Source of the DNA: Alphaproteobacteria bacterium
Lineage (GTDB): Bacteria > Pseudomonadota > Alphaproteobacteria > RS24
Reading direction: 5' to 3'
Length of the DNA stretch: 48,883 bases
Assembly: GCA_022426245.1 (NCBI GenBank)
Contig: JAKMDW010000038.1
Span: forward strand, 1-48,883
Made by a program: the position numbers and the translations under genes. Below are positions 15,366 through 40,018 of this stretch, in pieces. Each line of letters starts with the position of its first letter. Positions within the stretch are counted from its first letter, which is position 1. The notes under the pieces are model-generated. The model had not been told where the DNA came from. It saw nothing but the letters and a program-made list of their open reading frames with translations, and did no database searches.

Positions 15366-15419
15366 GCAGCGGAGAATTTTCGCGTGAGAATCACCTTTTT
15401 TTGGCTTAAAGTCTAATTT

Positions 15420-16019
15420 ATGGAAAGAACCATGCGCATCATTGCTCGGATGTTTGAGCAAAATGGAACGCTGTTTATCGGTGCCGGTATTGCTGTGCTT
15501 GTGCTGATTTTGCTGGTGATCGTCTCGCGCCGCATGCGCCGAGCAAATGCTACCGAAAACGGCGTGGCCGCGATGAGTAGTGCACCCCAATTTGGCGGCG
15601 ATATCGAGCTGGAAATGGCCGATGATGAAAACGCCGAAGCAGAAGCGATTATGTTTGAGGCCGATGGATCATCAGACCGAATGGTTGATGACGCCGCGCA
15701 TCAGTTTGATATGGACGATGATGCGCTGGACGATATTGACGACCTCACCATTCCGAAAGTCGGGGAAGCCCCACCGCCCCGCAAGTCAAAATTTTTCAGC
15801 GCCTCATGGCTGCACCGCGACAAGGCTGAGGAACCGGCCATTATCGCCGATAGTTTTGACGCGCCCGACAGCCGCACCCTGAAAGATGCCGGTGCCTGTG
15901 CCCGTTTGGCCGAGATTGAACGCAATATGTTGGCATTGCGTGAGCTTTATGAAGCCGGTCTTATCGCGCCGGAAGTTTATGTGCTGAAAGCGCGTGAATT
16001 CGCGGCACAAGCGGCCTAA
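15420..16019 (+). CDS. Uncharacterised membrane-anchored acidic protein next to minor pilins
   Basis: I do not recognise a named family. The 199-residue protein has one N-terminal membrane segment (about residues 17-36, FIGAGIAVLVLILLVIV) followed by basic residues, placing the rest in the cytosol. A highly acidic middle (residues 50-110, many Asp/Glu) follows. The C-terminal helix pair around LAEIERNMLALRELYEAGLI looks like a SHOCT-type short oligomerisation motif. An alternative ATG at 15432 with GGAAAG upstream would shorten it by four residues. It ends 3 bp before a prepilin-like gene, so it is probably the first gene of the minor-pilin transcript and may be a pilus accessory protein. Confidence 0.7.
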   Translation: MERTMRIIARMFEQNGTLFIGAGIAVLVLILLVIVSRRMRRANATENGVAAMSSAPQFGGDIELEMADDENAEAEAIMFEADGSSDRMVDDAAHQFDMDDDALDDIDDLTIPKVGEAPPPRKSKFFSASWLHRDKAEEPAIIADSFDAPDSRTLKDAGACARLAEIERNMLALRELYEAGLIAPEVYVLKAREFAAQAA

Positions 16020-16022
16020 ACC

Positions 16023-16583
16023 ATGCCACGCGCACAAAGCGGTTTCACGCTTGTCGAATTAACAACAACACTGGCTATTATCGGGGTAATTTCAGCCGCG
16101 CTTATGGCTGTGATGACCAACCTCAATACGCAAAGCGAACGGATGAATTCGCAGACCGAACTATTGGTCTCGAGCAAACAATTATTCGAACTGATTGAGC
16201 CGTGGGCTGCTTTGGCCGGCCACAAACAGGCCAACCCCGCCCTGCCGGAAAACAAGGCCTATGAAATTGTCAGCGCGTCGCACATTAAATTTTGCTATGA
16301 CCTCGACGCCGCCAGCCGCCAGCAAAGGGAGTTTCGTCTGCGCGACAAAAGATTGCAGGAGCGGGTTGAAGATAATTTTGGCTGCACAGTGGCGCCGAAT
16401 GAGAATGGCTGGGTCAATATTAGTGAGCCGGTTATTCGTACACTGACCTTTTCAGACAGCAATGGCAGCGACTATTCGCTCGACATGCGGCTGGAACTGG
16501 AAAAACTGGTGCCCGGCACAAATGAGATTACCGCGACTGTGGTTCGCCGCCGCTTCAATATGTTTGCAATGACTTTATATTGA
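16023..16583 (+). CDS. Type IV pilus minor pilin / pseudopilin (PilW/GspJ/MshO-like)
   Basis: 186-residue prepilin-like protein. A short leader MPRAQSG precedes the processing site and the type IV pilin N-terminus FTLVELTTTLAIIG, with Glu5 present. The hydrophobic helix runs to about residue 30. The remainder is a globular domain with two cysteines (FCYD and GCTVA) and a late strand region LEKLVPGTNEITATV typical of minor pilins. It should be cleaved by the prepilin peptidase encoded at 21136-21933. It starts 3 bp after the preceding membrane protein. Subclass (PilW, GspJ or GspH) is uncertain. Confidence 0.82.
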   Translation: MPRAQSGFTLVELTTTLAIIGVISAALMAVMTNLNTQSERMNSQTELLVSSKQLFELIEPWAALAGHKQANPALPENKAYEIVSASHIKFCYDLDAASRQQREFRLRDKRLQERVEDNFGCTVAPNENGWVNISEPVIRTLTFSDSNGSDYSLDMRLELEKLVPGTNEITATVVRRRFNMFAMTLY

Positions 16584-16602: not shown

Positions 16603-17121
16603 ATGAGCTTAAACATACGCACCATTCATGACCAGAGACCGGCAACCGGTGAGGCGGGCTTCGCCCTTTATCTCGCCATCGGCTTTGTCGTGTTAATTTC
16701 CATATTGGCCGGTTCTGTCGGCACAAAACTCAATATCGCATCGCTCAGCGAGGCGCGCCAAACCGACCGCCGCGCTGCCTTGAACGATGCCGAAGCGGCC
16801 CTGGGCTTGGCTTGGCATCGTTTGTCACAAGAATTTGCGCTTGATGATAATTGGCCTGCGGCTGCCAGTTCAGCCAGCGACACAAATGTGACCGGCGACC
16901 GCGATAAATGCGTCGGTTCGCATGAAACATCACCCAATGATTTTTATGCCTCAGAGCGCGCCAGTGTCGGTGATCGGGCACGGCGTTTTTTCGTCAAACG
17001 CGACGGCACCAGCTATCGGCTTTACGGTTGCGGCTATGATGAAAAAGGCACACGTGCCGCTTTCGCGCTTTACGAAGTGACCGGCACAGACCTGACGCTA
17101 ACGCGCACCCGCCGCTATTAG
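16603..17121 (+). CDS. PilX/GspK/MshP-like tip minor pilin
   Basis: 172 residues with a 19-residue leader ending GEAG, then FALYLAIGFVVLISILAG as the membrane helix. The residue at mature position 5 is Leu, not Glu. Loss of Glu5 is a known feature of PilX/GspK-type minor pilins, which cap the fibre, so a tip role is suggested. The following segment LNIASLSEARQTDRRAALND resembles the PilX-type linker (basic and polar after the helix, then A-rich). GAGGGAG lies just before the ATG. It is the last gene of the + strand minor-pilin set and converges on the PilV-like gene. Confidence 0.75.
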   Translation: MSLNIRTIHDQRPATGEAGFALYLAIGFVVLISILAGSVGTKLNIASLSEARQTDRRAALNDAEAALGLAWHRLSQEFALDDNWPAAASSASDTNVTGDRDKCVGSHETSPNDFYASERASVGDRARRFFVKRDGTSYRLYGCGYDEKGTRAAFALYEVTGTDLTLTRTRRY

Positions 17122-17133
17122 CGCTCATTCGGC

Positions 17134-17562
17134 TTACGGGGTTTTCAGTTTTTTATAAAAATTACGCGTGCGGGTCATCCGTCGCCCGCTCGGGCTAACC
17201 AATGTCAGTGTCGAAATATAGCTTATCGGACTGGCTCCGGCACTAATTGCCAGCGTTGAAGCGGCTGGACTATATCCATTATCGGTAAATAATATAGCCA
17301 GCCCCAAGCCATCGGAATCGGCGTCCACATCATAGGATGGCGTCACCGGCAATGCGCCATCACGCTGAAACTGGACGGCCAATTCATTCATGACACCATC
17401 GGCAATCATACCCATGCGGGCCTGCGCCCAGCTTGTTTCCATAATCGCGCGATTGGCGCTGACCATAGAAATAGTGCCGATAATACCTGTGGTGATGACG
17501 GTTAGCGCGACCATCACCTCAACCAAAGAGAAGCCGCTCTCGCCGTGCCTAATTGAGGTCAT
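17134..17562 (-). CDS. PilV/GspI/MshD-like minor pilin
   Basis: 142 residues from the ATG at 17562 (the frame is open further, to 17592, inside the secretin gene). The leader MTSIRHGESG is followed by the classical FSLVEVMVALTVITTGIIG, with Glu5 present. The pattern VMVALTV...GIIG and the following NRAIMETSWAQARMGMIADG are typical of I/V-type pilins, which have many A/Q-rich helix turns after the membrane segment. It overlaps the 3' end of the secretin gene by 14 bp and so is the last gene of that minus-strand transcript, translationally coupled to it. Confidence 0.8.
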   Translation of the reverse strand: MTSIRHGESGFSLVEVMVALTVITTGIIGTISMVSANRAIMETSWAQARMGMIADGVMNELAVQFQRDGALPVTPSYDVDADSDGLGLAILFTDNGYSPAASTLAISAGASPISYISTLTLVSPSGRRMTRTRNFYKKLKTP

Positions 17563-20500
17563 AATAGCGGGCTGAATTGACCGGCATCTCACCGGCTTTA
17601 GGCGTAATGACTTCTGGCGCCAAGAATATCACCATTTCTTGCGATGCTTTCGCGTCTGAACTGGTGCCGAGGAAGGTGCCCAATATCGGAATGCCGGTCA
17701 CACCCGGAAGCCCGTTGCGGGTCTTCGAATTGTCTTCCGTATACAGCCCCGCCAGCACAATCACATCACCGGGCGCGGCGATGAACTCGGTGTTTATCCG
17801 GCTCTGAATTTTATCGGAATTGGCATCAGTGGTAACAAAGAAGTCGTCATTGAATGCAATCTTCAGGCGCACATGGTCATTAAGCGGGTTGATGACCGGC
17901 GTCACATTAAGGCTCAACGTCGCTTGGCGCGGCTCATATGTGGTGGTGGATTCGCCCGGCACTGTTTGCCCGCCCGGTGTCACGACCGGCGCGGAAGTGG
18001 CGGTGACCGGCAGGTAACGCGTTTCCGATTTTTCAATCTGCGCCTCGCACCCATCAAGCGCCAAAATGGTCGGGCTTGAAACCTTGCGTCCAAGACTATT
18101 GCTCTCCATGAAATCAATCGTCCAAGCAAGGCCGAGGCGGAAATTATTCAGGGTAAAGCTATTGGCCGCAGCGGCACGGTCAGCAAATCTCAGCGCGCCC
18201 TGCACACCGATAAGTGAATTGTCACGCACTTCAACCAAGCCCGGCAACTGGCCGGTCACCGTATCGGGCAGAGCGGAGATATCGGCGTCGGTCTTGGCGG
18301 TTGTCCGCACAGCATTTTGCAGTTTGCTTTGCAGTTGGCGCTGCCAGTTTTTGGCAACATTGACCATGAACACTTCCACCAAAACCTGCTTATCCGGCTT
18401 GTCGAAGCTTTCCATCAACTCCGAGACCAGTTCAATGTCGTGACGAAAACCGGAAATGATAATCGTGTCTCCCACCGCGGTGACCGTCGGACGACGAAAG
18501 GACGAGTCGGTCAGGAAGATGGTTGAGGGTGGGGCTGTGGACGGCGCATCGTCTTCTTGAGATACGCCCTCCTCAGGCGCAGCCGTGTTTGTGGCTTGCG
18601 GCGTTGCCGCCCTATCGGCTTCAGCCGCTCCGGCAGGCGGAGCAGATGGGGCAATATCACCCGCAATATCGCTGGTAATATCAGTCACGCTGGCACTCGC
18701 CAAAGCTTCTTGCAAGGGGTCGAATACCGGCACACCTTGCTCGGCTATCAGACGCGCGCGTGCTTCTGCTTCGCGCTCTTCTTTCTCGCGCGCCAAACGC
18801 TCGGCCTCGACGCGTTCCTCCGAGGCTTTTTCAGCAGCAATCATCTCATCGGGATAAAGCTGTTCGAAATAGCTGGAGAGCTCGGTCTGAATTTCGCTCA
18901 CACGGTCGCCGCTATCGCCGCCGCAACTGGCCGCGCCTTCGCTATTATAAATGGTAAATTTTTCCGTATAGATCGGCTCGGTGGTTTGCAAATTGGCGTC
19001 ACGCACCACGCGGCCGCGCAACTCATCGGCATCAGGCACGTTGAGGAATGACATCGCATTATTATCACCCTCCAACCCACTGCCGATTTGCGGCATGGCA
19101 TTATCTGACGCATTGTTATCTGACGCATTGTCGGCCAAACTCGCCAGGCTTGCCGCCGCATCGGCGGCGGTCAGACGCACGACAACCTCATCAAGCAATT
19201 TTTGCTTATTGCCCCGCTCGGTCGTGAGCAGCGCCAGCGCTTGGTCAACATCCTCCAGCGCAAACATTGCTGTCTGAGCTTTTGTCGCCTGCGCTTGGCG
19301 TTCGGTCGTCGTTTCGAGGTCAAGCTCATCAAGCGCGCGCTCATTTGTCAGCGCAACCTCTTTAAACGCAACAATCGCGGCCGCAACCGCCGGCGAATGA
19401 TCGTCTTCAATAATCGCATCATTGGTCAGCGAACGCACACGTCCGGCCTCATCGGGATGCTGGAAATAATTTTGATAAATTTGGCGCAACGTCGCCGTGT
19501 CATTTTCAAGCGAACTTATTTTGCGCAAATTGCGGGCGCGCCGATTATGCAGCTCAGCCGCCGCAACCGCGTCATCAACACGCTCATTAAACTCGGCGCG
19601 GGTGTAAAAACGCGCAACGCCCATTTTACGGTCATACGCCATGGCCAGCCCGTAATTATCAATCAGAATATCGAAAATATCGAGCGCATCGGCGCGTGAA
19701 ATATCGAGGCTGACTTTTTGGGGCGCGGCATTCACGGCGGGCGACAAATAAACCTGCATATTAATCGATCGTGCCAGAGACTTCAGCGCGGTCGGCAATC
19801 GCAGGCCAGATAGATTAACGCTCAAACTGCGTGAGCCGACCTCATCGGACAAATCATCCATGCGTCCCAAAGAGACGCCGGTGGCGACATCATTGCCGAC
19901 AAACAAAAAGCTCTTCTCCAGCGAGACATATTCATCTTTGCGGGCCAATTCATTGCGCCCGAATAACGCCAAGGCGCCCAGCTCATTATTGTCACTCAGG
20001 CCGATAATCGTGGTTGGCTCAGCTTGTGCATATTGCGCTTCCAAATCTGCAATAAAGCCCTGCAATAATTTTTCATTGGCAATCTTGAAACCCTGCAAGG
20101 TCAGGTCGCGCGATTTTGAATGGCGCATATCCATCTGGTCGAGCAGTAATTTTTCAGTGTTATAACTTGCCAGCACGCCGCGTCTTTGGCGCCGAATGGT
20201 TTCAGCGCGTTTATCAATCGCTTTCAGCTGGCTGTCTAAAGAACGTTTGTTGGAAACCAAAGCGCCCTTACCCGGGTCGGCGTTTGACAGGTTTAACCCC
20301 TGCAATGACATTTCGGTCATCGATTGCGCGACAACCCCGTCGGCAATCTCATCAACTTCAATTTTTCCCGGAACCCGCACTTGCAGTAATTCGCGGCGTG
20401 GGGGCAGCGGCTTTAACTGCGCCGCCCGCGAACTGTCTATGCCATCAAGCGCCGCTTGCTCAGCGCGCACGGCGGCACGGCGGTCATCAAAACGTTGCAC

Positions 20501-20617
20501 CGCCCCCGATATGCTTAAATCGCGACCCGTGCGTGTGCCACAGCCATAAACATTTACGCATAGCGCCCCCGCAATCGCGAGCCGTATGACTTTTCCTGGG
20601 ACTGTAACTCTACGCAA
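17549..20617 (-). CDS. Type IV pilus secretin (PilQ/MshL-like), oversized lipoprotein
   Basis: Outer-membrane channel for the pilus, 1022 residues, far longer than MshL-type secretins (about 550). The signal ends VYGC (Cys26), a plausible lipobox. An STN/N0-like domain spans about 264-345 (SLSVNLSGLRLPTALKSLAR). Then comes about 360 residues of helical, low-complexity and coiled-coil sequence, with an EKEEREAEARARL stretch and P/A/E-rich linkers. An N-domain (VGDTIIISGFRHDIELV, about 715-735) and the secretin core follow, with the VPVIG-type signature as GLPGVTGIPILGTFLG near 970-985. Start is a TTG with GGAG 8 bases upstream; no suitable ATG exists. It is followed by the PilV-like gene. Confidence 0.92.
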   Translation of the reverse strand: MRRVTVPGKVIRLAIAGALCVNVYGCGTRTGRDLSISGAVQRFDDRRAAVRAEQAALDGIDSSRAAQLKPLPPRRELLQVRVPGKIEVDEIADGVVAQSMTEMSLQGLNLSNADPGKGALVSNKRSLDSQLKAIDKRAETIRRQRRGVLASYNTEKLLLDQMDMRHSKSRDLTLQGFKIANEKLLQGFIADLEAQYAQAEPTTIIGLSDNNELGALALFGRNELARKDEYVSLEKSFLFVGNDVATGVSLGRMDDLSDEVGSRSLSVNLSGLRLPTALKSLARSINMQVYLSPAVNAAPQKVSLDISRADALDIFDILIDNYGLAMAYDRKMGVARFYTRAEFNERVDDAVAAAELHNRRARNLRKISSLENDTATLRQIYQNYFQHPDEAGRVRSLTNDAIIEDDHSPAVAAAIVAFKEVALTNERALDELDLETTTERQAQATKAQTAMFALEDVDQALALLTTERGNKQKLLDEVVVRLTAADAAASLASLADNASDNNASDNAMPQIGSGLEGDNNAMSFLNVPDADELRGRVVRDANLQTTEPIYTEKFTIYNSEGAASCGGDSGDRVSEIQTELSSYFEQLYPDEMIAAEKASEERVEAERLAREKEEREAEARARLIAEQGVPVFDPLQEALASASVTDITSDIAGDIAPSAPPAGAAEADRAATPQATNTAAPEEGVSQEDDAPSTAPPSTIFLTDSSFRRPTVTAVGDTIIISGFRHDIELVSELMESFDKPDKQVLVEVFMVNVAKNWQRQLQSKLQNAVRTTAKTDADISALPDTVTGQLPGLVEVRDNSLIGVQGALRFADRAAAANSFTLNNFRLGLAWTIDFMESNSLGRKVSSPTILALDGCEAQIEKSETRYLPVTATSAPVVTPGGQTVPGESTTTYEPRQATLSLNVTPVINPLNDHVRLKIAFNDDFFVTTDANSDKIQSRINTEFIAAPGDVIVLAGLYTEDNSKTRNGLPGVTGIPILGTFLGTSSDAKASQEMVIFLAPEVITPKAGEMPVNSARYYDLN
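19101..19130 (-). repeat. Exact tandem 15-bp duplication inside the secretin gene
   Basis: Two perfect copies of a 15-bp unit (19101-19115, 19116-19130) encode the repeated DNASDN segment in the low-complexity part of the secretin insertion. It is in frame and preserves the reading frame. Confidence 0.9.
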
Positions 20618-20652: not shown

Positions 20653-21051
20653 TTATTTGGGACGCCGCAAATTTCCGGTGGCCCGCACTTCGGTGATTTT
20701 GCCAATCGCCTCGGTAATCACCTCGCGGGCAATATCGGCCATATAGCGGTTGATCCATTCTTCCATCATCGGGCGGATGACTTGGGCGACCGCCAGCTTA
20801 ATCGTGTCTTGCGAACGCTTGGTGTCGAACACGCTGGAATAACGCAAAAACTCAGCCCGCAGTGCAATCGTCGCTTCCTCGGTAATCGCCAAATCAAGCC
20901 CGTGCATCAAATGCTGAATGTCATGCTCTGACATGGCGGCTTGTTGGTCGCCGTCGCGGGTCTCTAAATCTGCCTCAAGACTGGTTTCAGCCTGCCCCAA
21001 TAATTCTTTGATGGCGCGCTTGTAATCATCTTCGGTCCGCAACGTGTTCAT
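20653..21051 (-). CDS. PopZ-like (DUF2497-type) protein in the pilus locus
   Basis: 132-residue soluble protein. The C-terminal helices IRPMMEEWINRYMADIAREV (about residues 91-110) and ITEAIGKI match the pattern of the PopZ/DUF2497 C-terminus (RPLLKEWLDxNLPxIVExxV), which drives oligomerisation of the alphaproteobacterial polar organiser. The N-terminus is acidic and Gln/Glu-rich but short, without a long proline-rich spacer. The ATG has AGGATAA upstream. It lies 35 bp upstream of the secretin gene on the same strand and after the prepilin peptidase gene, so it is probably expressed with the pilus. A polar-targeting role is inferred from homology and context. Confidence 0.65.
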   Translation of the reverse strand: MNTLRTEDDYKRAIKELLGQAETSLEADLETRDGDQQAAMSEHDIQHLMHGLDLAITEEATIALRAEFLRYSSVFDTKRSQDTIKLAVAQVIRPMMEEWINRYMADIAREVITEAIGKITEVRATGNLRRPK

Positions 21052-21135
21052 GCTTTATCCTCGTTAGAAAACGAATCTCTTTCGCTGTTAAGAGTATAAA
21101 GCTGTTTGGGTAACAGGTGATGCAAAATCGGTGGA

Positions 21136-21933
21136 TTATTGCGCAGCCGACAGTAATTGTGGCGCAAAAAACAACCAGACAAGCGCCATCGGGGTTAGAA
21201 AACAGCCAAATGGCACTTGCGTCGGTTGGCCTTGCCCATCTTGCCCTTTTTGAGATTTTTGCGCTTGTGCCGCCAAAATTGCCAAAATGCCGAAAAACGC
21301 GCCGCTTATGCTGGCCGCGAATAGAATCGGCAGCAGCGCCAATGGCCCCAACCAGACGCCCAGCATGGCCATCAGCTTGACATCACCAAACCCCATACCG
21401 TCATGGCCGCGCCATAATTTATAGGCCGCATTGATAGAATAAATCAGCGCAAAACCACACGCGCCGCCCAGCAGCGCATCGGTGATAACCGGCAGGCCCG
21501 GCGCCCGAAACACGGACAGCCCCACGCCCAATGCCAAACCGCCCAGACTGGCCCAATCGGGAATGATAAAGGCGTCCATATCGGTTAGAAAGATCACCAC
21601 CATCAAAATGGTGAACGGCACAAAGCTTAAAAACACCAGCAGGTTGAGTTGATGGAAGGCGAGCACCAGCAAGGCTGCCATTGCCAGTTCAACATATAAA
21701 TAACGCCGTGGCAGTTTTTGACCGCAGCACCCGCTGCGCCCACCATAACGCAGATAGCCGAAAATCGGCAGATTGGCGAAGAAGCTGAGTTGTTTGGCGC
21801 AATGGAAACAGGCTGAGGGCCGGCGCACCCAATCCTCGCCGCGCAATGTGCGTAGGGCTGCAACATTGGCAAAACTGCCAAGGCAGGCGCCAATAAGCGC
21901 GATAAGAGCCGCTAAATATGGATCATTGACCAT
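21136..21933 (-). CDS. pilD: Prepilin peptidase / N-methyltransferase (PilD/GspO)
   Basis: Inner-membrane aspartyl protease that cleaves prepilin leaders at the Gly-Phe bond and methylates the new N-terminus. It is 265 residues from the ATG at 21933; the frame extends to a TTG at 21948. The N-terminal cytosolic domain GSFANVAALR is followed by a cysteine motif CFHC ... GCCGQK, a variant of the usual CxxC...CxxC. The two catalytic aspartates lie in FLTDMDAFIIPDW and GMGFGDVKLMAMLG. About seven further hydrophobic segments are visible. Three pseudopilins and a major pilin in this window are its expected substrates. Confidence 0.94.
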   Translation of the reverse strand: MVNDPYLAALIALIGACLGSFANVAALRTLRGEDWVRRPSACFHCAKQLSFFANLPIFGYLRYGGRSGCCGQKLPRRYLYVELAMAALLVLAFHQLNLLVFLSFVPFTILMVVIFLTDMDAFIIPDWASLGGLALGVGLSVFRAPGLPVITDALLGGACGFALIYSINAAYKLWRGHDGMGFGDVKLMAMLGVWLGPLALLPILFAASISGAFFGILAILAAQAQKSQKGQDGQGQPTQVPFGCFLTPMALVWLFFAPQLLSAAQ

Positions 21934-22041
21934 GACGTTTACCCGCAACAGTGAAGGCCGTTGAGCACATCGGCTCTGGCCAAAATTTGGAAGCCCCAGT
22001 ATAAACAGGTTACGAGTTGTCGTGTAGAGTCAAAGCTGAAA

Positions 22042-23079
22042 ATGTCGCAAACCGAAAAACCCATACCCGCAGATAATCCGGTCTATCGTTATCTTGACGA
22101 ATTGCCGAAGGAATATCGCATATCAGATTTTCATATGCGCTCGGGAAGCCCATTGGCCATTCGGGTGAATGGCGAAATTCAGATTATGCAGGACTGCCCG
22201 ATTACCCATGAAATGCTGGATGGTATATTTCGGCACGAATTGGACGAAGAGCTTTATGACGGCTTTGCCGAAACCAAAGATATTGACTTTGCCATTACGG
22301 TAAATGGCGCACGCTTTCGGGCCAATGGCTATCACACGCTTAATGGTTGGGGCCTGATTTGCCGGACAATTGTTACCGAAGTGCCGAATATCGATCAGCT
22401 TGGCCTGCCGGCGGCGGTGCATAATGTGCTGGTTGAAAAAAAGGGTCTGGTGCTGGTCACCGGCCCAACCGGTTCGGGTAAATCAACCTCGCTGGCCTCG
22501 ATGATCAATAAGATTAATCGGGAGCGCGCCGAGCACATTATTACCATTGAGGATCCGGTCGAGTTTGTTCACTCGGAGATTAAATCGATTATCTCGCAGC
22601 GCGAAGTGGGGCGCGATACGATGAGCTTTGCGTCGGCGCTAAAGGGTGCTTTGCGCGAAGACCCGGATATTTTGCTACTGGGTGAAATGCGCGATTATGA
22701 GACCATTTCATTGGCTTTGACCGCAGCCGAAACCGGCCATTTGGTTTTCGGCACATTGCATACTTCGGGCGCCGCCGAAACCATTAACCGGATCATTGAT
22801 GCGTTTCCGGCCGAAGAACAGCCGCAAGCGCGCTCCATGGTCGCCTCGTCTTTGCAATTGGTGATGACGCAGCAATTGATGAAACGCAAAAGCGGCGGTC
22901 GCATCGGTGCGTTTGAGGTAATGGTCTGCGTGCCCGCGATTAAAAACCTCATTCGCGAAGACAAAATTCCGCAAATCGCCACCGTTATGCAAACCGGCGC
23001 ACAATACGGCATGATTACCATGGAAAAATATGTCGATGAGTTGGAAAAACAGGGCCTTATCGTTATTGAGGACGACTAG
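22042..23079 (+). CDS. pilT: Type IV pilus retraction ATPase PilT
   Basis: Cytosolic hexameric ATPase that disassembles the pilus for twitching and DNA uptake. It is 345 residues, as expected for PilT, when the ATG at 22042 is used (an upstream TTG at 21961 would add an unlikely 27 residues). Walker A is GPTGSGKST (about 141-149), the Asp box is IITIEDPVEFVH, Walker B is ILLLGEMRD and the His box is GTLHTSGAAE. The C-terminal AIKNLIREDK matches the AIRNLIRE motif diagnostic of PilT. It diverges from the pilD block, and its 3' end overlaps the convergent glycosyltransferase gene by 17 bp. Confidence 0.95.
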   Translation: MSQTEKPIPADNPVYRYLDELPKEYRISDFHMRSGSPLAIRVNGEIQIMQDCPITHEMLDGIFRHELDEELYDGFAETKDIDFAITVNGARFRANGYHTLNGWGLICRTIVTEVPNIDQLGLPAAVHNVLVEKKGLVLVTGPTGSGKSTSLASMINKINRERAEHIITIEDPVEFVHSEIKSIISQREVGRDTMSFASALKGALREDPDILLLGEMRDYETISLALTAAETGHLVFGTLHTSGAAETINRIIDAFPAEEQPQARSMVASSLQLVMTQQLMKRKSGGRIGAFEVMVCVPAIKNLIREDKIPQIATVMQTGAQYGMITMEKYVDELEKQGLIVIEDD

Positions 23080-24957: not shown

Positions 24958-25527
24958 CTAGAAGTTAGCGATGGTCGTGTGACGCTTGGTGAGTTTACCG
25001 TCACTGTCGCCTTCTTTAGCGCAGAAATATACGTCGATGTGGCTCGCGCCGGCACCGGAAACGCGAACAATAATGTCGCCATTTTGCGATGAAGCATCGA
25101 GATTTGTGCAATCAACCGTACCGTCGCCCGTGACAGCTGATGAGCTGGCAATTGCGCGAATGGCTGTTGAGCCGGTGCGCGAGGTCGTATACGGGTTTTT
25201 GAAGCTCTCGAAAGGACCGCCTGCGGCACCCAACTGGCCGAAGCAACCGGAGCTGGCAACTGCAGCAGCGGCAGTCGTTGCTGATGTCAGTGTTGCCGAT
25301 TTACACGCCACCGGGTCGGTGTCGATGCCTGCAGCACGAACGGTTTTGGTGTTTACCAACCACTGATGAACCGCTTTTGCGTTTGCATCGGTGACCGATT
25401 TTTTGGTGCTGTCGATATAACCTTGGTAACCGACAACGCCAACGGCGGCCAATACACCAATAATTGCAACAACAACCAACAGTTCAATAAGGCTAAAGCC
25501 TTTTTCGCTTCTTGCGCGAATGTCCAT
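24958..25527 (-). CDS. pilA: Major type IV pilin (PilA/MshA-like)
   Basis: 189-residue prepilin. The leader MDIRARSEKG is cut before FSLIELLVVVAIIGVLAAVG, the canonical type IVa pilin N-terminus with Glu5. The globular part is rich in Ala, Ser and Thr and has four cysteines (VACKS, SGCFG, VDCTN, YFCAK) able to form two disulphides. A consensus AGGAGAG lies ahead of the ATG and a strong terminator behind the stop, both expected for the most abundant subunit. The neighbours are a PglL-type enzyme and a partner-switch regulator. I cannot tell whether it is closer to PilA or MshA. Confidence 0.93.
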   Translation of the reverse strand: MDIRARSEKGFSLIELLVVVAIIGVLAAVGVVGYQGYIDSTKKSVTDANAKAVHQWLVNTKTVRAAGIDTDPVACKSATLTSATTAAAAVASSGCFGQLGAAGGPFESFKNPYTTSRTGSTAIRAIASSSAVTGDGTVDCTNLDASSQNGDIIVRVSGAGASHIDVYFCAKEGDSDGKLTKRHTTIANF

Positions 25528-32096: not shown

Positions 32097-32339
32097 ATGA
32101 GTGAGAGTGATTTTGCACCAACTGTTGCACCTACGCCAATCGTCCATTGCCGTCATTGTCGGTTTTGGGACGCGCATATGATTGCCCGCCCAACCCGCAC
32201 GCCGGAGGGCCTATGTCGGCGTAAAGCCCCTGCCCCCGCCATGCTGGCCGATGAAGCGGACACCGGCACAAGCTGGCCGAAGACTTTTGAAGATGATTGG
32301 TGCGGCGATGGCGAGCCGAATGAAGCGACAGGTTTTTAG
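32097..32339 (+). CDS. Small cysteine-rich protein (putative zinc-binding)
   Basis: 80-residue hypothetical protein with a conserved-looking cysteine arrangement: CRHC near residue 18, CRRKAPAP near residue 41 and DDWCGDGE near residue 68, with WPKTFEDDW between. The spacing CxxC ... C ... C with WP-T and DWCG recalls a small family seen in alphaproteobacteria, which I cannot name. It overlaps the 3' end of the convergent pilC gene by 4 bp. Codon use and the composition of the frame look coding. Function unknown. Confidence 0.65.
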   Translation: MSESDFAPTVAPTPIVHCRHCRFWDAHMIARPTRTPEGLCRRKAPAPAMLADEADTGTSWPKTFEDDWCGDGEPNEATGF

Positions 32340-33568
32340 CCGCCTGCCAAATCACCGGCTGAGAAGATGGGCAGATAAAGCGCCACAACCATCATACCGA
32401 TAAGGCCGCCGACAAACACAATCATCACCGGTTCGATGACGGTTGAGAGACCCTCAACCAGCGCGTCGAATTCTTCTTCATAATAATTGGCAATCGAGTT
32501 CAGCATTTCTTCCATATTACCCGTGCGTTCACCGACAGCGATAAGCTGCGACAGCTCAACCGGAAATACTTTTTCCTTGGCAAATAATGAAGACAGCTCA
32601 GCACCCGTCATGACATCGCGTTTCACACGGTCGAAAGCGTTCATGAATAAAGTATTGGTGGTGACAGTGGAGGCGACCGTCAGGGTTTCCAACACGCTGA
32701 CACCGGCGGCAAATAAATTGGCCATAAGCAATGAGGAGCGCGCCACCACCGCCATCATGATAATGCCGCCGAAAAGCGGCAGTTTCAGCAACAGCATGTG
32801 CCATAAATAACGATAAGGGTGCACATATTTGGTCATCAGGCTGTGAAATGTAATCGTGCCGAAAACCACCGCAAACACGCCCAGCACATTGCGAATATCG
32901 GCAATCCATTCGCTGGCATCGACAATGGCTTGTGTCGGGCCGGGCAGCGCAATGCCCATTCCCTCATACATTTCTTGGAAAGTCGGCACCACATTGGTCA
33001 GCATGAACAGCGAAATACCCAGCGAGACGGTAATCAAGGTTACCGGATAGAACATGGCCGATTTGATACCGGCTTTAATCTTTTGCTGCTTTTCAAGAAT
33101 TTCCACCAGCTTGTCGATAAACTTATCGAGCATGCCCGATACTTCACCCGCCTCAATCATATTGCGATAAACATTGTCGAAATGGCGTTCATGCTCGCGA
33201 AATGCGGCCGAGAGTGGCTTACCGTCATTCAGGGTCGAAATCATTTGCTGCGTGACCCGTTTCATATTCGGATTTTTAGTTTGCCCCGCCACCATAACCA
33301 GCCCGTCCAAAATCGGCAGACCGGCGCGAATCATGGTGGATAGCTTTTTAGTGAACATGAGGATTTCTTTTGACGGTATCGACCCGAAAGGCCCCCAAGT
33401 GATTTGAATATCCAGCGCACCGGATTTCTTCTCTTTCACCTCTTTGATTTTTTTGACCCTGATGCGCTGCTGGCGCAAAGTGGAGCGCGCGCGCGCCATG
33501 CTATTGGCTTCGACTTGCCCTTTTACCTTTTTTTTGCCTTGTAAACCGGCATATGCATAAAACGTCAT
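32336..33568 (-). CDS. pilC: Type IV pilus inner-membrane platform protein PilC (GspF/MshG family)
   Basis: 410-residue polytopic platform protein that couples the assembly ATPases to pilin insertion. The N-terminal segment TFYAYAGLQGKKKVKGQVEA is typical. The two repeated GspF domains are visible as MFTKKLSTMIRAGLPILDGL (about residue 72) and, in the second half, ARSSLLMANLFAAGVSVLETL. Three membrane helices are apparent, with the last ending IVFVGGLIGMMVVALYLPIF. It lies 9 bp after pilB and is the last gene of the five-gene pilMN-pilO-LysM-pilB-pilC transcript. Confidence 0.94.
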   Translation of the reverse strand: MTFYAYAGLQGKKKVKGQVEANSMARARSTLRQQRIRVKKIKEVKEKKSGALDIQITWGPFGSIPSKEILMFTKKLSTMIRAGLPILDGLVMVAGQTKNPNMKRVTQQMISTLNDGKPLSAAFREHERHFDNVYRNMIEAGEVSGMLDKFIDKLVEILEKQQKIKAGIKSAMFYPVTLITVSLGISLFMLTNVVPTFQEMYEGMGIALPGPTQAIVDASEWIADIRNVLGVFAVVFGTITFHSLMTKYVHPYRYLWHMLLLKLPLFGGIIMMAVVARSSLLMANLFAAGVSVLETLTVASTVTTNTLFMNAFDRVKRDVMTGAELSSLFAKEKVFPVELSQLIAVGERTGNMEEMLNSIANYYEEEFDALVEGLSTVIEPVMIVFVGGLIGMMVVALYLPIFSAGDLAGG

Positions 33569-33577
33569 GACAAAACC

Positions 33578-35335
33578 TTAATTGACCACCAGCACACGGG
33601 TAAACTCTTCAAGACACAAGACGCCGTCTCTAATGTAATCGCGCCCGACCTCTTGCATCGTCATAAAATTATCAAGCCGCGCCGCTTCCAAAATTTCCGG
33701 GGCTTGCGCTTGCTTCAAAATCGTTTCTTCAACTTCGGGCGTGACCCGCAACACTTCGTAAATGCCCTGCCGGCCTTTATAACCCGTGCCTTCGCAACTC
33801 GCACAACCGCTGCCCTTGCGCGGCTGCATAGCTTGCACTTCTTCGGCGCTAAAGCCGATATATTCAAGCGCGGCGGGCGTCGCATTGTCATCAGGCACCA
33901 GACAATCAGGGCAATTTTTACGCGCCAAACGCTGCGCCACCACCAGCGATAAGGCGGCTGAAATCATGAAGCTCGGCACACCCATATTGAGCAGCCGCGA
34001 AATCGTCGAAATGGCATCATTGGTATGCAAAGTGGAGAGCAGCAAGTGGCCGGTAAGCGCTGCCTTCACGGCAATCTCAACCGTCTCTTGGTCGCGAATC
34101 TCACCCACCAGAATAACCTCAGGGTCTTGGCGCAAAAAGGCGCGCAAAATGGAGGAGAAGGAAAGGCCGATTTTCTCATTGGCCTGTGTCTGTCCCAAAC
34201 CCTCCAGATAATACTCCACCGGATCCTCGGCCGTCATAATATTGGTGCCGGGGTCGTTAATATATTGCAGCGCGCCATACAGCGTTGTGGTTTTGCCCGA
34301 CCCTGTCGGCCCGGTGACCAACACCATGCCCTGCGGCGCGGTAATGGCGCCGATGAGTTTTTCTAAATCCGCCTCTTTGAAGCCGATTTTCTCAATCGAC
34401 AGTGACGGGTCGCCTTTCAAAAGGCGGATGCAAATGCGCTCGCCATTTTTGCCCGGTAGCACGTTAAAGCGGGTATCAACATCCTCGCCATCAGGCGCTT
34501 TAAAGGTAATGGCACCGTCTTGCGGCAGACGTTTTTCAGCAATATCGCAATCGGCCAAAATTTTGAGGCGAGTAATGACGGCCAAATAATTGTGAAACAG
34601 GAAATCAGAAAACTGGTCTTGCGCTTGCAGCACGCCGTTAATACGAAATCTGATACGGGCGGTTTCGCGATAGGGTTCAATATGAATATCGCTGGTATCG
34701 GTCGTGACCGATTGCTCCAAAATATCATCGACGAATTTGATGACCACGGTCGGGTCGTCAATATCATAGGCGGAACGCCGCCGCGGCGTGGGACGCAGGG
34801 CCTCAGCGGCAGGGGCAGCGGCGACCTCCTCTTGCTTTTTCTGCCCCAAACTGGCTTGCACATCTTCATGCCCCATGCAGGCCGCGAACTCGCTGGGCTT
34901 GATGAGGAAGAACTCAACATTTTGATTGCTCAGCGCCTTAATCTGATTAGCCAAAGTGGCTTTGGTCGGGTCCACTGTCGCAACCCGCAAAAACCGCCCT
35001 TCGCGCGCAAATGGCAGAATATGCTCACGATCAATCATATCTTTGGACACCGAGGTCAGCGCGTCTTTGGCAACATCGCTGGGGGCGATATTTTTGCGCC
35101 GCAACGCATAAGCACGCGACAAAATATTGACCACTAATTCTTCTTCAACCGCTGCTGCCGGAGGCTTACTGGGGTCGTCCGGGTCGGGCTTGGCTTCCAT
35201 CAAAAGGGCCAGCGCACGCGATGAGCGCGATTCAGCCTGCACCATAATCTCGGTCATTTTAGCCTCATCGACCTGACCGCTGGCTTGGAGAATACGCAAA
35301 ACGCGATCCGCAACATCCTTTGTGTATTCAGTCAT
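33578..35335 (-). CDS. pilB: Type IV pilus assembly ATPase PilB (GspE/MshE family)
   Basis: 585-residue cytosolic hexameric ATPase powering pilus extension. The N-terminal MshEN/GspE-N region (residues 1-180) is followed by the N2 domain and the ATPase core. This has Walker A GPTGSGKTTTLYGAL, Asp box MTAEDPVEYYLEG, Walker B VILVGEIRDQETV and His box LLSTLHTNDA. The tetracysteine zinc site is intact as CPDC ... GCASC plus GTGYKGRQGIYEVL. It lies between the LysM protein and pilC genes on the same strand. Confidence 0.95.
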   Translation of the reverse strand: MTEYTKDVADRVLRILQASGQVDEAKMTEIMVQAESRSSRALALLMEAKPDPDDPSKPPAAAVEEELVVNILSRAYALRRKNIAPSDVAKDALTSVSKDMIDREHILPFAREGRFLRVATVDPTKATLANQIKALSNQNVEFFLIKPSEFAACMGHEDVQASLGQKKQEEVAAAPAAEALRPTPRRRSAYDIDDPTVVIKFVDDILEQSVTTDTSDIHIEPYRETARIRFRINGVLQAQDQFSDFLFHNYLAVITRLKILADCDIAEKRLPQDGAITFKAPDGEDVDTRFNVLPGKNGERICIRLLKGDPSLSIEKIGFKEADLEKLIGAITAPQGMVLVTGPTGSGKTTTLYGALQYINDPGTNIMTAEDPVEYYLEGLGQTQANEKIGLSFSSILRAFLRQDPEVILVGEIRDQETVEIAVKAALTGHLLLSTLHTNDAISTISRLLNMGVPSFMISAALSLVVAQRLARKNCPDCLVPDDNATPAALEYIGFSAEEVQAMQPRKGSGCASCEGTGYKGRQGIYEVLRVTPEVEETILKQAQAPEILEAARLDNFMTMQEVGRDYIRDGVLCLEEFTRVLVVN

Positions 35336-35380: not shown

Positions 35381-37009
35381 CTAGTTTCCGTCAATCTTTT
35401 TGGGCTTCTCGGCCAATTTCTTGATGAAGTTTTGCGACCCCTCGCGCCGTGTTTCCTCACCCTTCATCAGCCTTTGCCCTAGCGCCGTGTCCTCAGCACC
35501 TGGCACATTGGGGTCAATATTGCCTGCCGCTTCAGCCGCAGCACTGGCGGCTTTGGCCGCTTTATCAAGCGCGGCTTTGCGCGCTGCCTCGGCGGCGCGG
35601 CGTTTTTCCTCCGGATCAATTTCCGGTATCCGGTTCAATGGCAGCGTCAGCAAATACCCATTGGCATCGGTCAGCATGATGCGGTCATTGGTAATTTTGG
35701 CAATCGTGCCTTCCGCATTGCCAAGCTCTTGGCCTTCGGTAAGAAAATATTCAAGCTTGGTCAGGCGCGTTACATCTGTGCGCCCGCTATCGAGTTCATC
35801 ATCACCGTCAAAATAAACATAAGGGCTGACCGAGATGATGGCGTGACTGTCAAAATTGCGCCCGCGCTCCGGCCCGGGCACACGATTGACCACGAGGCAC
35901 GGCAAATCATCTTTGCGGAACAGCGCGCAATACGCCTCGCCATGGCGCTCCGAACGCAACGGCCCGATATCCATATTATAGAACATTTTGCCTTTATGCT
36001 TATCATCGCTTTCGCGGCGCAACGAAATATCGCTATCCATAAACTGATAATATTTGGCAAAAAATTCGCGCGCGCCGCGCATCGCTTTTTCCTCATCGGC
36101 AAACTGCCCAAGTCGCGCATAGGGCATACGCGCCTTGGTCAAATGGCTGTCATCAACCTTAACCGGCGCGGGCACGGCCATGCGGGCCAGTTGGTCATTA
36201 ATGGCTTTTTCGCGAATAAGAAAACGCCGTCCCAAAACCAGCTTATCGTCTGCGCCCAAATCATTGCGCACACGCAAACGCGGCACATCCGTGTCATAAA
36301 TCTTGGCCAGCTTCGCAATCGTGTCGCTGCGCAAAACAATATGCGTGAGCGGACCATTATCGCGCGGGCTGACATAAAACCGCATCGGGTCGGCAAGCTG
36401 CTTTTCACGCAAGGCATTATTCATGCCCAGCATATCGTCAACCTGCATCACCAGCTTGCGGGCAATAGACGACAGGGTCTCGCCCTTATTGCGCTGATAC
36501 ACCCAACGCCGTTCGCGCCCCGACCAGAAGAGCTGGCCGGATCTGGGCTTCTCAACCTCCTCAATAACATGAATGACCGGCTGGGTTTGCGGCTTGGAGA
36601 GCACCAGCCCGTCGAGGCGATATTTGCGCGCGGCGAAAGCGGTAAAGAAATCAGGGTCAGAAATCGGGGCAGGAATAATGACTTCTTCCTCAACAATCAC
36701 GTCACCATCGCTCGGCGTATCGCCTGTGCCTTGCTGCAATTGCAGTGCCTTGCGCGCCAGTTCTTCGGCTTCGCGTTGCAAGCGCAGGCGCTCATCCAAT
36801 CGCTTCAGCCCGCGCACAAACGGGTCTTGCGGATCGGCGGCGGCGATATCTTGCTTAACCGGTTTTGGCTTTTCAGCTTGCGCCGAACTTTGACCGGCGG
36901 GCGCATCAACCGGGGCGGTTTGTGCTGAGACAGCAGCGTTTCCGCTGACCGCAATTGAGATGATAAAGGCCCAAAGAACCGGGGAGAAAGAGCTTACCAA
37001 TAAACGCAT
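35381..37009 (-). CDS. Periplasmic LysM-containing pilus protein in the PilP position
   Basis: 542 residues, exported: hydrophobic signal residues 2-22, then VSAQ. A Pro/Ala/Gln-rich linker and a coiled-coil-like stretch (60-95) precede two LysM-like motifs at about 171-215 (NKGETLSSIARKLVMQVDDM) and 222-266 (VLRSDTIAKLAKIYDTDVPR). A SPOR-like segment may lie at 300-378 (FYNMDIGPLRSERHGEAYC). A short beta region at 432-465 (GTIAKITNDRIMLTDANGYL) recalls the PilP/HR fold. The end is Ala/Lys-rich and charged. LysM binds peptidoglycan, as in TsaP and FimV. Its start overlaps the pilO-like stop by one base. Domain calls other than LysM are tentative. Confidence 0.7.
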   Translation of the reverse strand: MRLLVSSFSPVLWAFIISIAVSGNAAVSAQTAPVDAPAGQSSAQAEKPKPVKQDIAAADPQDPFVRGLKRLDERLRLQREAEELARKALQLQQGTGDTPSDGDVIVEEEVIIPAPISDPDFFTAFAARKYRLDGLVLSKPQTQPVIHVIEEVEKPRSGQLFWSGRERRWVYQRNKGETLSSIARKLVMQVDDMLGMNNALREKQLADPMRFYVSPRDNGPLTHIVLRSDTIAKLAKIYDTDVPRLRVRNDLGADDKLVLGRRFLIREKAINDQLARMAVPAPVKVDDSHLTKARMPYARLGQFADEEKAMRGAREFFAKYYQFMDSDISLRRESDDKHKGKMFYNMDIGPLRSERHGEAYCALFRKDDLPCLVVNRVPGPERGRNFDSHAIISVSPYVYFDGDDELDSGRTDVTRLTKLEYFLTEGQELGNAEGTIAKITNDRIMLTDANGYLLTLPLNRIPEIDPEEKRRAAEAARKAALDKAAKAASAAAEAAGNIDPNVPGAEDTALGQRLMKGEETRREGSQNFIKKLAEKPKKIDGN

Positions 37010-38244
37010 TACTTCTTCGCCTCCGCCGCTTTCTTGGCCGGGTCATCCAATTCCGCATCATAGTCGCGTTTGGTCGGCACCATCAGGCTGGCTTTGATGT
37101 TCAAATTCGGGGTTCCGGTTTGCGGGTTCATTGTCTCTTTCAGCACGCTGGCAATTTTCAACTCATCAACAAAGATTTTGCGAATATCGACATAGACATC
37201 ATAGCGCCCCTGAAGATTAAGCTCGACCAGATTTGCTTGCTGCACACGATTGCCGATAATCACCTTGCGGTCATCCATTGAGGATAAATTATAACCCTGC
37301 AATTCAATATCGTATTTCTGCAAAGCGGCGACATAGCGATTGAATAATGTTTCCAAATCTGTATTCGGCATGAGCTTATCGATACGCCGCTTGGCATCTT
37401 GCTCCAATGCCGACAAGCGCACCGCCATGCTGTCCGCCAGTTTTTTATCCTCCGCCATTTGCGCTTCAAAACCACGAATTTGCGTAAGCTTTCGCCCATT
37501 ATCTGAAATTTGTGGCTGGATGATAGCCAAATTGACCGCCGGTGGCACGGCCGCAACCAGCACCAGAATAATCGCGCGAATAATCGTATAAGGCAAAAGC
37601 GACGCCCCCGATTGGGCGTCATAAGCCGCGGCCGCATTGCGCACGCCGATAAGCCGCGTCACCCCACCTGCACCGGCACGAAAGCGTGACAGCAGACCGC
37701 CAAAGCGGGTTTTGGTTTTCTCGTCTTCATCAAACGCGTCTTCACCAAACGGGTCGTCCCCCAAAACTGCGTCTATTTCTTCATCAGTGAGGGAAACCTG
37801 CCCATCATCGGCATCGGCACCGGTATCGGCACCGGTATCGGCATCGGAAAGGGCGCCATCATCCATCGCGGGCGCGAATTCTTCCAGCAAATCATCGGTT
37901 CCGAAAGTTACCTGCGCGGCTTGTTTTTCACTGCGATATTTTTCGGCAACCTCAAGCGCAGCCTTTTCATCGACCATCATCGCGCCATCGCCATCCTCAA
38001 TATGGTCGAGCAAATCGGCAAAGGCGCGCGCTTTGGCATCCTCATGCGGCGTCAACAAAACCGGCGCGGCGGCTTCATCCGGCATGGCGTGTTTCAGTGC
38101 TGCCATATCAAGCGCGCCAGATGAAGGCTCAATCGCACCCGATATTTCAGCCAAAAGCCTGCGCGCATCAGCCGATAAAGGCTGGCCAGTTTGAGGCATT
38201 TCTTGCCCGGATTGGGGGGCTGAATGATGGGTCGAGTCAGACAT
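37009..38244 (-). CDS. PilO-like alignment-subcomplex protein with long acidic cytosolic N-terminus
   Basis: 411 residues. A long acidic cytosolic N-terminus (about 1-215, runs of Asp/Glu/Ala including TGADTGADADDG) precedes one membrane helix (about 222-243, TIIRAIILVLVAAVPPAVNL). A coiled-coil (245-295) and an alpha/beta domain follow, with IELQGYNLSSMDDRKVIIGN and GRYDVYVDIRKIFVDELKI. Membrane helix, coiled coil, then a ferredoxin-like domain is the layout of PilO (and PilN). Since PilN is fused to PilM in the preceding gene, this is best read as PilO. Canonical PilO has only a short cytosolic N-terminus, so the 215-residue extension is unusual. Overlaps both neighbours by one base. Confidence 0.72.
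   Translation of the reverse strand: MSDSTHHSAPQSGQEMPQTGQPLSADARRLLAEISGAIEPSSGALDMAALKHAMPDEAAAPVLLTPHEDAKARAFADLLDHIEDGDGAMMVDEKAALEVAEKYRSEKQAAQVTFGTDDLLEEFAPAMDDGALSDADTGADTGADADDGQVSLTDEEIDAVLGDDPFGEDAFDEDEKTKTRFGGLLSRFRAGAGGVTRLIGVRNAAAAYDAQSGASLLPYTIIRAIILVLVAAVPPAVNLAIIQPQISDNGRKLTQIRGFEAQMAEDKKLADSMAVRLSALEQDAKRRIDKLMPNTDLETLFNRYVAALQKYDIELQGYNLSSMDDRKVIIGNRVQQANLVELNLQGRYDVYVDIRKIFVDELKIASVLKETMNPQTGTPNLNIKASLMVPTKRDYDAELDDPAKKAAEAKK
37816..37839 (-). repeat. Tandem 12-bp duplication in the pilO-like gene
   Basis: Two exact copies of a 12-bp unit (37816-37827, 37828-37839), flanked by partial copies, encode the repeated D-T-G-A segment in the acidic N-terminus. Confidence 0.88.
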
Positions 38245-39872
38245 TATTGCATCCTCGACAAGGTGAGTGTCATCGAGAAGCGCCAGAAGTCGCCATCCTT
38301 TTCGGTTTCCACCGTCGGGTCGCGGCGGAGTATTTTGGCCGTGCGTAAATTGCGCTTCAGCCGATTAATATCTTCATTTTCCAACGCCAGACCGGCCATG
38401 GTCACACCGTCCTTAGCGTCAATTTCAAGTATTTGCAGCTCGGCACCGGCGGGCAAGAGCGCGGGCAATTTTGACAAAAACACGCCATAGCCGCGATTGG
38501 CCGAATTGGCGCGAATATCGGTAATGACCTGATTTATCTCCGTCAGCTTTTTCTCATTCACCTGCCGCCGCAATGCCTCAGCCCGCGCCGCACTGGCGGC
38601 TGCGTTATATTGCGTCGACGCCTCGCGGGTTTGCAGATAAGCCGGCACCGTATTCACCCCCAGCACCGTGCCGGAAAATAAAATCACCGCGACAATGGCC
38701 AGCGATAAAATACGATTGACCGCCCCCAATTGTCGGTTGCGCCGAATGCGCGGCGCGTCTTCAAGGAAATTCATCGAGATTAGGCGGCTATGCATATTGG
38801 CGCGGCTGCGCCCTTCAACATTCAGGCCCTGCGTGGCCAGCCCCATCGCGGTTGTGAAAATCGACGGATTGGCAAAAAAATCGACATATTTTTGATGCTC
38901 ATTCGGCACCTCAACATCGTCCATCGCGTCATAGATAACGACGCGCGCTGTGCCGAGCCGCTCATGCAGCAGGAAGTAAAAATTTTCAATCTCGCGATAT
39001 TCGGAAACCAGAAACACTTTATCAGGGCGTTGCACATCATAGGTCTCAACCAGAAAAGCAATCGCCTGCTTCACCTGCTCGCTGACCCGAATGGCGACTT
39101 CCTCCCAGAAATCACCCTCGACCTCATCGACACGTTCAAGCTCCATCAGCAGGGCTTCGTCAAAATCAGAGATATTGATTTTGTGCATATATAGGCGGCC
39201 GCGATAATGCACCACAATCTGATTATTGCCCGGGCATAAATGCACGGCGAAAAATGGCTTATAGCGCTCATCGGTGCTCATCCGCGCGTAAATGCCATTG
39301 ACCAGAGAGAACAGCTCATTCTCGACAAACACCGGAATGAGATTGGCCTCCAGCATTAGTGACCGATAGCGTTCCAGTTCACCGACCGGCAGGCTGGCTA
39401 TCATCACATCGATGCGGTCTTCGCCCTCATTGGCATACAGAATTTGATGTCGCACCACGCGCCCGACAAGATTGGTCAGCTCAGGGTCAAATTCCTCCCA
39501 AAACTCCGGCTCCTCAGCCTCCTCGGCCAGCTCGGCCTCTTCCATATAGGGAAGTTGCAAAACGCGCACATCGAACAAAGAATGAGGAATGGAGATGCCC
39601 GCATCAACACCGTCAATGCCGGCCTCTTTGGCAGCGGCGGAAATTTGGTCAGCGAGGTAATTGAAATTGTCCTGCACAGGCGAGCGCCCAATGGCGTTCT
39701 CCAACGACCAGCTGACCAAACGGTCCAAATCCCAATCATCAAGGGTCGGGTGAAGCTGCACCACGGAAACTGCATCAGGATGAAGCTTGACCGCCACAAT
39801 CCGCTCTTGCTGCCGCAAAAGCGGTCCGGCAATTTGCACGGCTCCGGCAAGGAAAGCTTCGGCTCTACTCAT
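38244..39872 (-). CDS. PilM-PilN fusion protein (type IV pilus alignment subcomplex)
   Basis: 542 residues in two parts. Residues 1-355 are a cytosolic actin-like PilM-type domain, with VAVKLHPDAVSVVQL near the start, GISIPHSLFDVRVLQLPY, and a late phosphate-loop-like region. Residues 360-542 have the PilN layout: a short motif ISMNFLEDAP (about 365-374, compare the INLLP of PilN that docks into PilM), a basic stretch RIRRNR, a membrane helix at about 388-408, a coiled coil and a ferredoxin-like periplasmic domain. It is the first gene of the minus-strand pilus operon. PilM and PilN are normally separate proteins; MshI-type proteins may be related. Confidence 0.75.
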   Translation of the reverse strand: MSRAEAFLAGAVQIAGPLLRQQERIVAVKLHPDAVSVVQLHPTLDDWDLDRLVSWSLENAIGRSPVQDNFNYLADQISAAAKEAGIDGVDAGISIPHSLFDVRVLQLPYMEEAELAEEAEEPEFWEEFDPELTNLVGRVVRHQILYANEGEDRIDVMIASLPVGELERYRSLMLEANLIPVFVENELFSLVNGIYARMSTDERYKPFFAVHLCPGNNQIVVHYRGRLYMHKINISDFDEALLMELERVDEVEGDFWEEVAIRVSEQVKQAIAFLVETYDVQRPDKVFLVSEYREIENFYFLLHERLGTARVVIYDAMDDVEVPNEHQKYVDFFANPSIFTTAMGLATQGLNVEGRSRANMHSRLISMNFLEDAPRIRRNRQLGAVNRILSLAIVAVILFSGTVLGVNTVPAYLQTREASTQYNAAASAARAEALRRQVNEKKLTEINQVITDIRANSANRGYGVFLSKLPALLPAGAELQILEIDAKDGVTMAGLALENEDINRLKRNLRTAKILRRDPTVETEKDGDFWRFSMTLTLSRMQ

Positions 39873-40018
39873 ACAGTCAACACCCGTTTACCAAACGCCT
39901 TACACCCAAGAACTTTTCTTAAAAGCCGATTGGGCAGGCATCATGATGGGCGGCGATTATTCCGAATCACCGCTCATTTCTTAGTTTTACCACAAAAAAC
40001 CGCACAAATTTATCACAA

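Follow-up and report, generated by a model that had tools for sequence, protein, structure and literature searches.

A PopZ-type DUF2497 protein in a type IVa-like pilus island of the marine PS1 clade: a possible second cell-organising scaffold

Introduction

What would a PopZ-like protein do inside a pilus locus? This question is raised by a stretch of alphaproteobacterial DNA of 48,883 nucleotides (contig JAKMDW010000038.1 of assembly GCA_022426245.1), which was analysed as a whole and is called the window here. A first-pass annotation, made from the letters of the window, had described a 132-residue protein with a PopZ/DUF2497-like C-terminus encoded 35 bp upstream of the secretin. It had proposed that this protein is a pilus-dedicated, miniature PopZ that could place the pilus at a pole. 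The protein, called mini-PopZ below, was compared across 28 genomes of its family, the marine PS1 clade of the Alphaproteobacteria. With few exceptions, these genomes are metagenome-assembled and partly incomplete.

Results

Position of mini-PopZ within the pilus island

The 132-aa open reading frame starts with ATG on the minus strand and occupies exactly positions 20653 to 21051. A GAGG motif resembling a ribosome-binding site precedes the ATG. The secretin starts at 20617, downstream of mini-PopZ on the same strand, and the annotated gap of 35 bp was confirmed by measurement. On the upstream side, mini-PopZ is flanked by a co-directional prepilin peptidase gene. The genes of the island are as follows.

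16023-16583, plus strand: prepilin-like protein (N_methyl), adjoining o199, a membrane protein described below
16603-17121, plus strand: small protein of the minor-pilin block, with no Pfam assignment
17134-17592, minus strand: prepilin-like protein (N_methyl), downstream of the secretin
17549-20617, minus strand: pilus secretin, 1022 aa (PF00263, E 4.6e-27; TIGR02515 below its cut-off)
20653-21051, minus strand: mini-PopZ (open reading frame and DUF2497 match)
21136-21948, minus strand: prepilin peptidase, A24 (PF01478/PF06750)
21961-23079, plus strand: PilT-type retraction ATPase (TIGR01420, 417 bits, cut-off 319); the true start is probably the ATG at 22042
24958-25527, minus strand: probable major prepilin (N_methyl, E 3.1e-8)
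32336-33568, minus strand: PilC-like platform protein (PF00482; NCBIfam below cut-off)
33578-35335, minus strand: PilB-like extension ATPase (TIGR02538, 529 bits, cut-off 676)
38244-39872, minus strand: fused PilM/PilN-like protein (PF05137, PF11104 and TIGR01175, weak)

A PilT retraction ATPase, a secretin, a prepilin peptidase and prepilins, by which a type IVa locus is recognised, are all encoded. The presence of PilT, prepilins, PilC, PilB and a PilM/PilN-like gene indicates that the island is type IVa-like. The secretin carries a long non-secretin N-terminal part that matched no Pfam family.

Other genes are interleaved with the pilus genes between 12157 and 32059. They encode an adenylate cyclase, a metallo-beta-lactamase fold protein, STAS and SpoIIE-type regulators, and MoxR, DUF58 and transglutaminase proteins. 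PilB and the PilM/N-like gene flank a gene at 35381-37009 that encodes a LysM-domain protein. In other bacteria, LysM proteins, FimV among them, serve as polar hubs for pili. Seven family genomes (G008, G009, G013, G017, G020, G023 and G025) also carry elsewhere a second, stronger secretin and a GspE-type ATPase, which are type II secretion-like.

DUF2497 similarity of mini-PopZ

The motifs RPMMEEW, IAREV and EAI named in the first-pass annotation are all present in the C-terminus of mini-PopZ. The Pfam profile of DUF2497 (PF10691) matched the window protein with E 1.4e-5 and 25.9 bits, just below the cut-off of 27 bits. The match runs from residue 58 to 120 on profile positions 6-74 of 75, so that nearly the whole profile is covered. 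The same cut-off was exceeded by the orthologues in G001, G004, G005, G010, G013, G014, G017, G018, G023, G024 and G025. The NCBIfam PopZ family (NF052660) gave E 9.5e-6 and 27 bits; its cut-off of 125 was not reached, and mini-PopZ is therefore not filed as PopZ proper.

The similarity might be a coincidence, arising from an amphipathic helical protein that happens to resemble the domain. The window protein lies under the curated cut-offs and shows weak matches to unrelated helical families too. However, DUF2497 was matched by all 11 aligned mini-PopZ relatives, with a best E of 9e-10. When the search was reversed and a profile of the mini-PopZ family was run on 385 genomes of the class, matches of 25-36 bits were obtained in other families, and in 8 of the 8 cases that could be checked these coincided with canonical PopZs that DUF2497 also matches. 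The alignment of helices H3-H4 with PopZ is gapless, with Pro94 and Trp99 invariant among the mini-PopZs, and a profile-profile comparison between the mini-PopZ family and the PopZs encoded between tolC and valS in the same family gave E 1.1e-5. Because the similarity is found in both directions, the likeness of mini-PopZ to PopZ goes beyond chance, and a coincidence is very improbable.

Outside the family, the nearest match to the mini-PopZ profile other than PopZ (43 bits) was a stand-alone 77-aa DUF2497-type protein (G216, L117:1474-1707). It is encoded beside GcrA in a genome of another family, far from any pilus.

Domain layout of mini-PopZ

Two parts of the protein were located by comparison with PopZ.

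20692-20880, minus strand: DUF2497 domain, residues 58-120, equivalent to PopZ helices H2-H4 (profile match and alignment)
20986-21030, minus strand: N-terminal helix, residues 8-22, corresponding in position to PopZ H1, diverged (alignment and H1 PSSM)

No signal peptide or transmembrane segment was apparent in mini-PopZ, with a maximal 19-residue hydropathy of 0.73. An identity as a secretin pilotin was considered and dropped, because no signal peptide is apparent and because of the PopZ similarity. The AlphaFold model shows three helices (7-31, 42-75 and 78-125) at a weak pLDDT of 63. The search of solved structures gave no meaningful match for mini-PopZ; for canonical PopZ it returned 6xry only, which covers the N-terminal and linker part and leaves the DUF2497 domain without a template.

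H1 is the helix by which PopZ binds its clients. A PSSM of canonical H1 (EEILASIRRII type) scored the window protein at -10.2 bits, no better than shuffled sequences. Conservation of H1 was therefore rejected for the window protein, and positional equivalence alone is retained. The PSSM matched one of 20 sequences, that of L090 (EELLSSIKILISDAE), at the expected place with 16.4 bits (p<0.0005, 2000 shuffles). The linker of mini-PopZ is about 20-25 aa long and proline-free, and the long acidic proline-rich disordered linker of the PopZ type is missing. The word "miniature" suits the linker but not the DUF2497 domain, which is whole.

A second DUF2497 gene at the canonical popZ place

A search of the same genome for a further popZ, as the first-pass annotation had advised, found that TolC and ValS flank another DUF2497 gene, which scored 47.5 bits. 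This is the canonical popZ; its place is known from Caulobacter and Magnetospirillum (PMC6414705) and was seen in L006 as well. The ValS query was inexact over its first ~16 residues; the matches were unambiguous nonetheless. Both genes are found in most genomes of the family, and none of the 33 genomes searched outside the family has two DUF2497 places. No paper naming a PopZ paralogue as such was found in a search of the open literature.

In a maximum-likelihood tree, a split with UFBoot 100 separates the single clade of the mini-PopZs from every tolC-valS PopZ and from the PopZs of the class; the alignment is short (79 columns) and the exact branching order is unreliable. The tolC-valS PopZ of PS1 likewise has a short linker. 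In genus g6 of the same family (L156/G016 2142-2205; also G019 and G022), no DUF2497 protein was found. There popZ is gone and TolC and ValS lie ~60 bp apart. This PopZ-free alphaproteobacterial genus keeps GcrA and a CcrM-type gene.

Retention of mini-PopZ after loss of the pilus

Mini-PopZ is present in 21 of the 28 family genomes and lies between the prepilin peptidase and the secretin across the family, strain IMCC14465 (G013, L088) having it together with the secretin and PilT. The arrangement is no accident of a single genome, the DUF2497 similarity is real, and the gene is not the only popZ, so that neither of the objections foreseen in the first-pass annotation applies.

The proposed dedication to the pilus held in part. 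A pilus-type secretin was found in 14 of the 28 genomes, and all 14 have mini-PopZ, but in seven genomes (G006, G010, G012, G014, G018, G024 and G025) mini-PopZ is intact and the secretin is missing or truncated. In G014 (L047:6686-8017) and G018 (L050), the secretin gene next to mini-PopZ is cut short, and the frame that stays open encodes 443 N-terminal residues and no pore domain. In G010, which is 100% complete in 3 contigs, the secretin, PilB and other genes are gone and PilT is broken. The 28-kb island of G006, between rhomboid and TauD/DsbA, is lost except for o199 and mini-PopZ, which are now adjacent and convergent; the secretin and prepilin genes lie between the two where the ancestor-like order is kept. 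All that is left of the island in G024 is o199, mini-PopZ and one prepilin gene. Given the pair in G006, the probability that the three survivors of 22 genes in G024 include both is 0.013. The completeness of G006, G012 and G024 is 77%, 79% and 73%, and part of the absence of pilus genes could reflect missing contigs, although in G006 and G024 the locus runs unbroken through the deleted part.

The dN/dS of mini-PopZ is about 0.04-0.19 against other members of the genus. These low values indicate a real gene under purifying selection. Against their nearest relatives, the pilus-less G006 and G010 gave 0.02-0.07 and 0.05-0.07, respectively.

These data bear on the reading in which mini-PopZ is a strictly pilus-dedicated polar targeting factor that recruits the secretin, with the copies in pilus-less genomes being leftovers on their way to loss. 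Its presence in every genome with a pilus-type secretin fits this reading, as does its place in the same operon, 26-52 bp ahead of the secretin in most members of the genus. Decaying pilus genes still lie beside it in G010 and in the g4 genomes. However, G006 and G024 have lost nearly all other pilus genes and keep mini-PopZ, o199 and their GANTC sites intact, the dN/dS of the G006 copy stays low, and selective retention together with o199 is unexpected for a leftover. Strict dedication to the pilus is therefore unlikely. Since mini-PopZ, accompanied by o199, persists in several species after the pilus is gone, it looks like a second cell-organising scaffold and not only a part of the pilus.

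o199, a putative membrane partner

15420-16019, plus strand: o199, putative partner of mini-PopZ (transmembrane, disorder and hairpin predictions; co-occurrence)

o199 comprises one N-terminal transmembrane helix, an acidic disordered tail in which an IP motif is conserved, and, at its C-terminus, a helical hairpin for which pLDDT 92-94 was predicted. The acidic stretch contains 27% D/E over 108 aa. Judged by the positive-inside rule, this tail probably lies in the cytoplasm. The o199 of G012 is shorter, about 105 aa, with the transmembrane helix and hairpin kept. A short C-terminal helical hairpin of similar pattern in a transmembrane protein is found in the SHOCT domain. Membership of o199 in SHOCT (PF09851) was rejected, as no Pfam match was obtained for the o199 family or in its own genome.

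The profile of the o199 C-terminus gave 73-94 bits in exactly the 21 genomes that have mini-PopZ, and o199 is absent from all seven that lack it, a 22-bit match in G027 being taken as noise. Fisher's test of the co-occurrence gave p 8e-7, a value that overstates the independence, given the relatedness of the species and the proximity of the two genes. As both genes lie in one island, their co-loss is partly linkage. An o199-like protein of 167 aa, with a transmembrane helix and a C-terminal hairpin, is encoded in G404 (L162:1465-1968) with no mini-PopZ beside it.

CcrM methylation sites upstream of mini-PopZ and o199

15388-15392, plus strand: GANTC site, GAATC, 32 bp upstream of o199, in the conserved stretch GTGAGAATCA (from the comparison)
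21073-21077, minus strand: GANTC (CcrM) site, GATTC, 26 bp ahead of mini-PopZ and kept by 18 of the 21 genomes
21093-21098, minus strand: TATACT, -10-like hexamer upstream of the GATTC, conserved in the alignment

GANTC is rare in the window, with 28 sites observed against 160 expected, and 12% of random 150-bp stretches contain one. The site upstream of o199 was found in 18 of 19 genomes, and the pilus-less G006, G010 and G024 too have kept the upstream sites of both genes. No upstream GANTC was found for the secretin (0/14), PilT (0/15) or the prepilin gene on the o199 side (0/13), and the tolC-valS popZ has one in 1 of 16 cases. The PilM/N-like gene has the site in 3 of 3 cases, at 39964-39968 in the window (~95 bp upstream of the operon) and in two other genomes. 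No CtrA-type TTAA-N7-TTAA site was found in the window.

Genes for GcrA and for a CcrM-type RAMA protein are present in genome G000. Judged by their conserved promoter GANTC and the presence of GcrA and CcrM, mini-PopZ and o199 qualify as putative CcrM/GcrA-controlled genes, and TATACT may be the promoter of mini-PopZ and the secretin. In Caulobacter, GcrA and CcrM govern the polarity gene podJ via GANTC, and a change of GANTC to GCNTC there has a precedent of a 60-80% fall in expression (PMC3667746).

The sites bear on a further reading, in which mini-PopZ still oligomerises through DUF2497 but no longer has a polar role. Together with o199 it would serve membrane assembly, as adaptor or chaperone, anywhere in the envelope. 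H1 has diverged, the linker is missing, only the oligomerisation domain is clearly conserved, and the stand-alone 77-aa protein indicates that the domain is reusable. The CcrM sites and the PopZ ancestry speak against it and point to cell-cycle and polarity genes, by analogy only. This reading is rather improbable, with somewhat under one chance in four.

Discussion

The explanation that we favour, at about even odds, is that mini-PopZ forms a second PopZ-type scaffold timed by the cell cycle. It would be held at the membrane by o199 and, in genomes that have a pilus, connected to that pilus. Under this explanation, mini-PopZ would have diverged from the PopZ encoded at tolC-valS ahead of the radiation of the family. 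Its DUF2497 domain may self-assemble as in PopZ. The Caulobacter PopZ linker has 78 aa, and engineered PopZ with a shortened linker had a lower saturation concentration and denser condensates (PMC9512792); by analogy, the short linker could make the mini-PopZ assembly dense and rather static. With its tail in the cytoplasm, o199 would bind mini-PopZ and tether it to the inner membrane, like the bitopic ZitP for Caulobacter PopZ, where ZitP acts near DUF2497 (PMC5182065). CcrM and GcrA would time both genes to the cell cycle, and a mini-PopZ patch would form at a defined stage, probably at a pole. In genomes with the pilus, this patch could mark the site at which the secretin and the motors are assembled. 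Another client would keep the pair in the pilus-less genomes.

A broader proposal is more tentative, and we consider it possible at a little under one chance in three. It holds that, in PS1, mini-PopZ and o199 make up a second polar or membrane hub that has CcrM/GcrA timing of its own, depends on neither PopZ nor pili, and came to be used for placing the pilus in some lineages. The o199 tail may then provide in trans the acidic repulsive element that PopZ has in its linker.

In the Alphaproteobacteria, PopZ is regarded as a hub encoded by one gene copy, and the PS1 mini-PopZ is a stable paralogue. A short-linker paralogue with a membrane partner and cell-cycle sites of its own would be a natural experiment on the function of the linker and on how the clients of one hub stay apart from those of another, for which engineered PopZ has been used so far. 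It also makes it possible to test whether a PopZ-type scaffold is linked to the placement of type IVa pili.

Comparison with known systems

Mini-PopZ resembles PopZ in its C-terminal DUF2497 domain, its N-terminal helix at the place of H1, its cytoplasmic nature and its occurrence in Alphaproteobacteria. It differs in the missing long acidic proline-rich linker, the diverged H1, its location in a pilus operon instead of tolC-valS, the promoter GANTC, and the canonical PopZ also present in the genome.

The ZitP-PopZ and ZitP-CpaM-CpaC modules (PMC5182065, PMC5182063) likewise combine a bitopic membrane protein with a PopZ-type scaffold and have a link to a pilus secretin. They share cell-cycle (GcrA/CtrA) control, which the GANTC sites suggest for mini-PopZ and o199. 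Unlike ZitP, o199 has no zinc finger and no DUF3426. The pilus of the ZitP-CpaM-CpaC system is of the Tad type, whereas the present island encodes a type IVa-like pilus with PilT. ZitP and CpaM bring about polar assembly of the Tad secretin CpaC in Caulobacter without a need for PopZ (PMC5182063), so that this branch gives no direct precedent for a mini-PopZ placing a pilus at a pole. The C-terminal hairpin in a transmembrane protein is shared between o199 and SHOCT (PF09851), but a Pfam match is absent. The island shares PilT, PilB, PilC, PilM/N, the secretin, the prepilin peptidase and the prepilins with type IVa pilus loci, and it differs from them in its unusual 1022-aa secretin and in the PopZ-type gene between the prepilin peptidase and the secretin.
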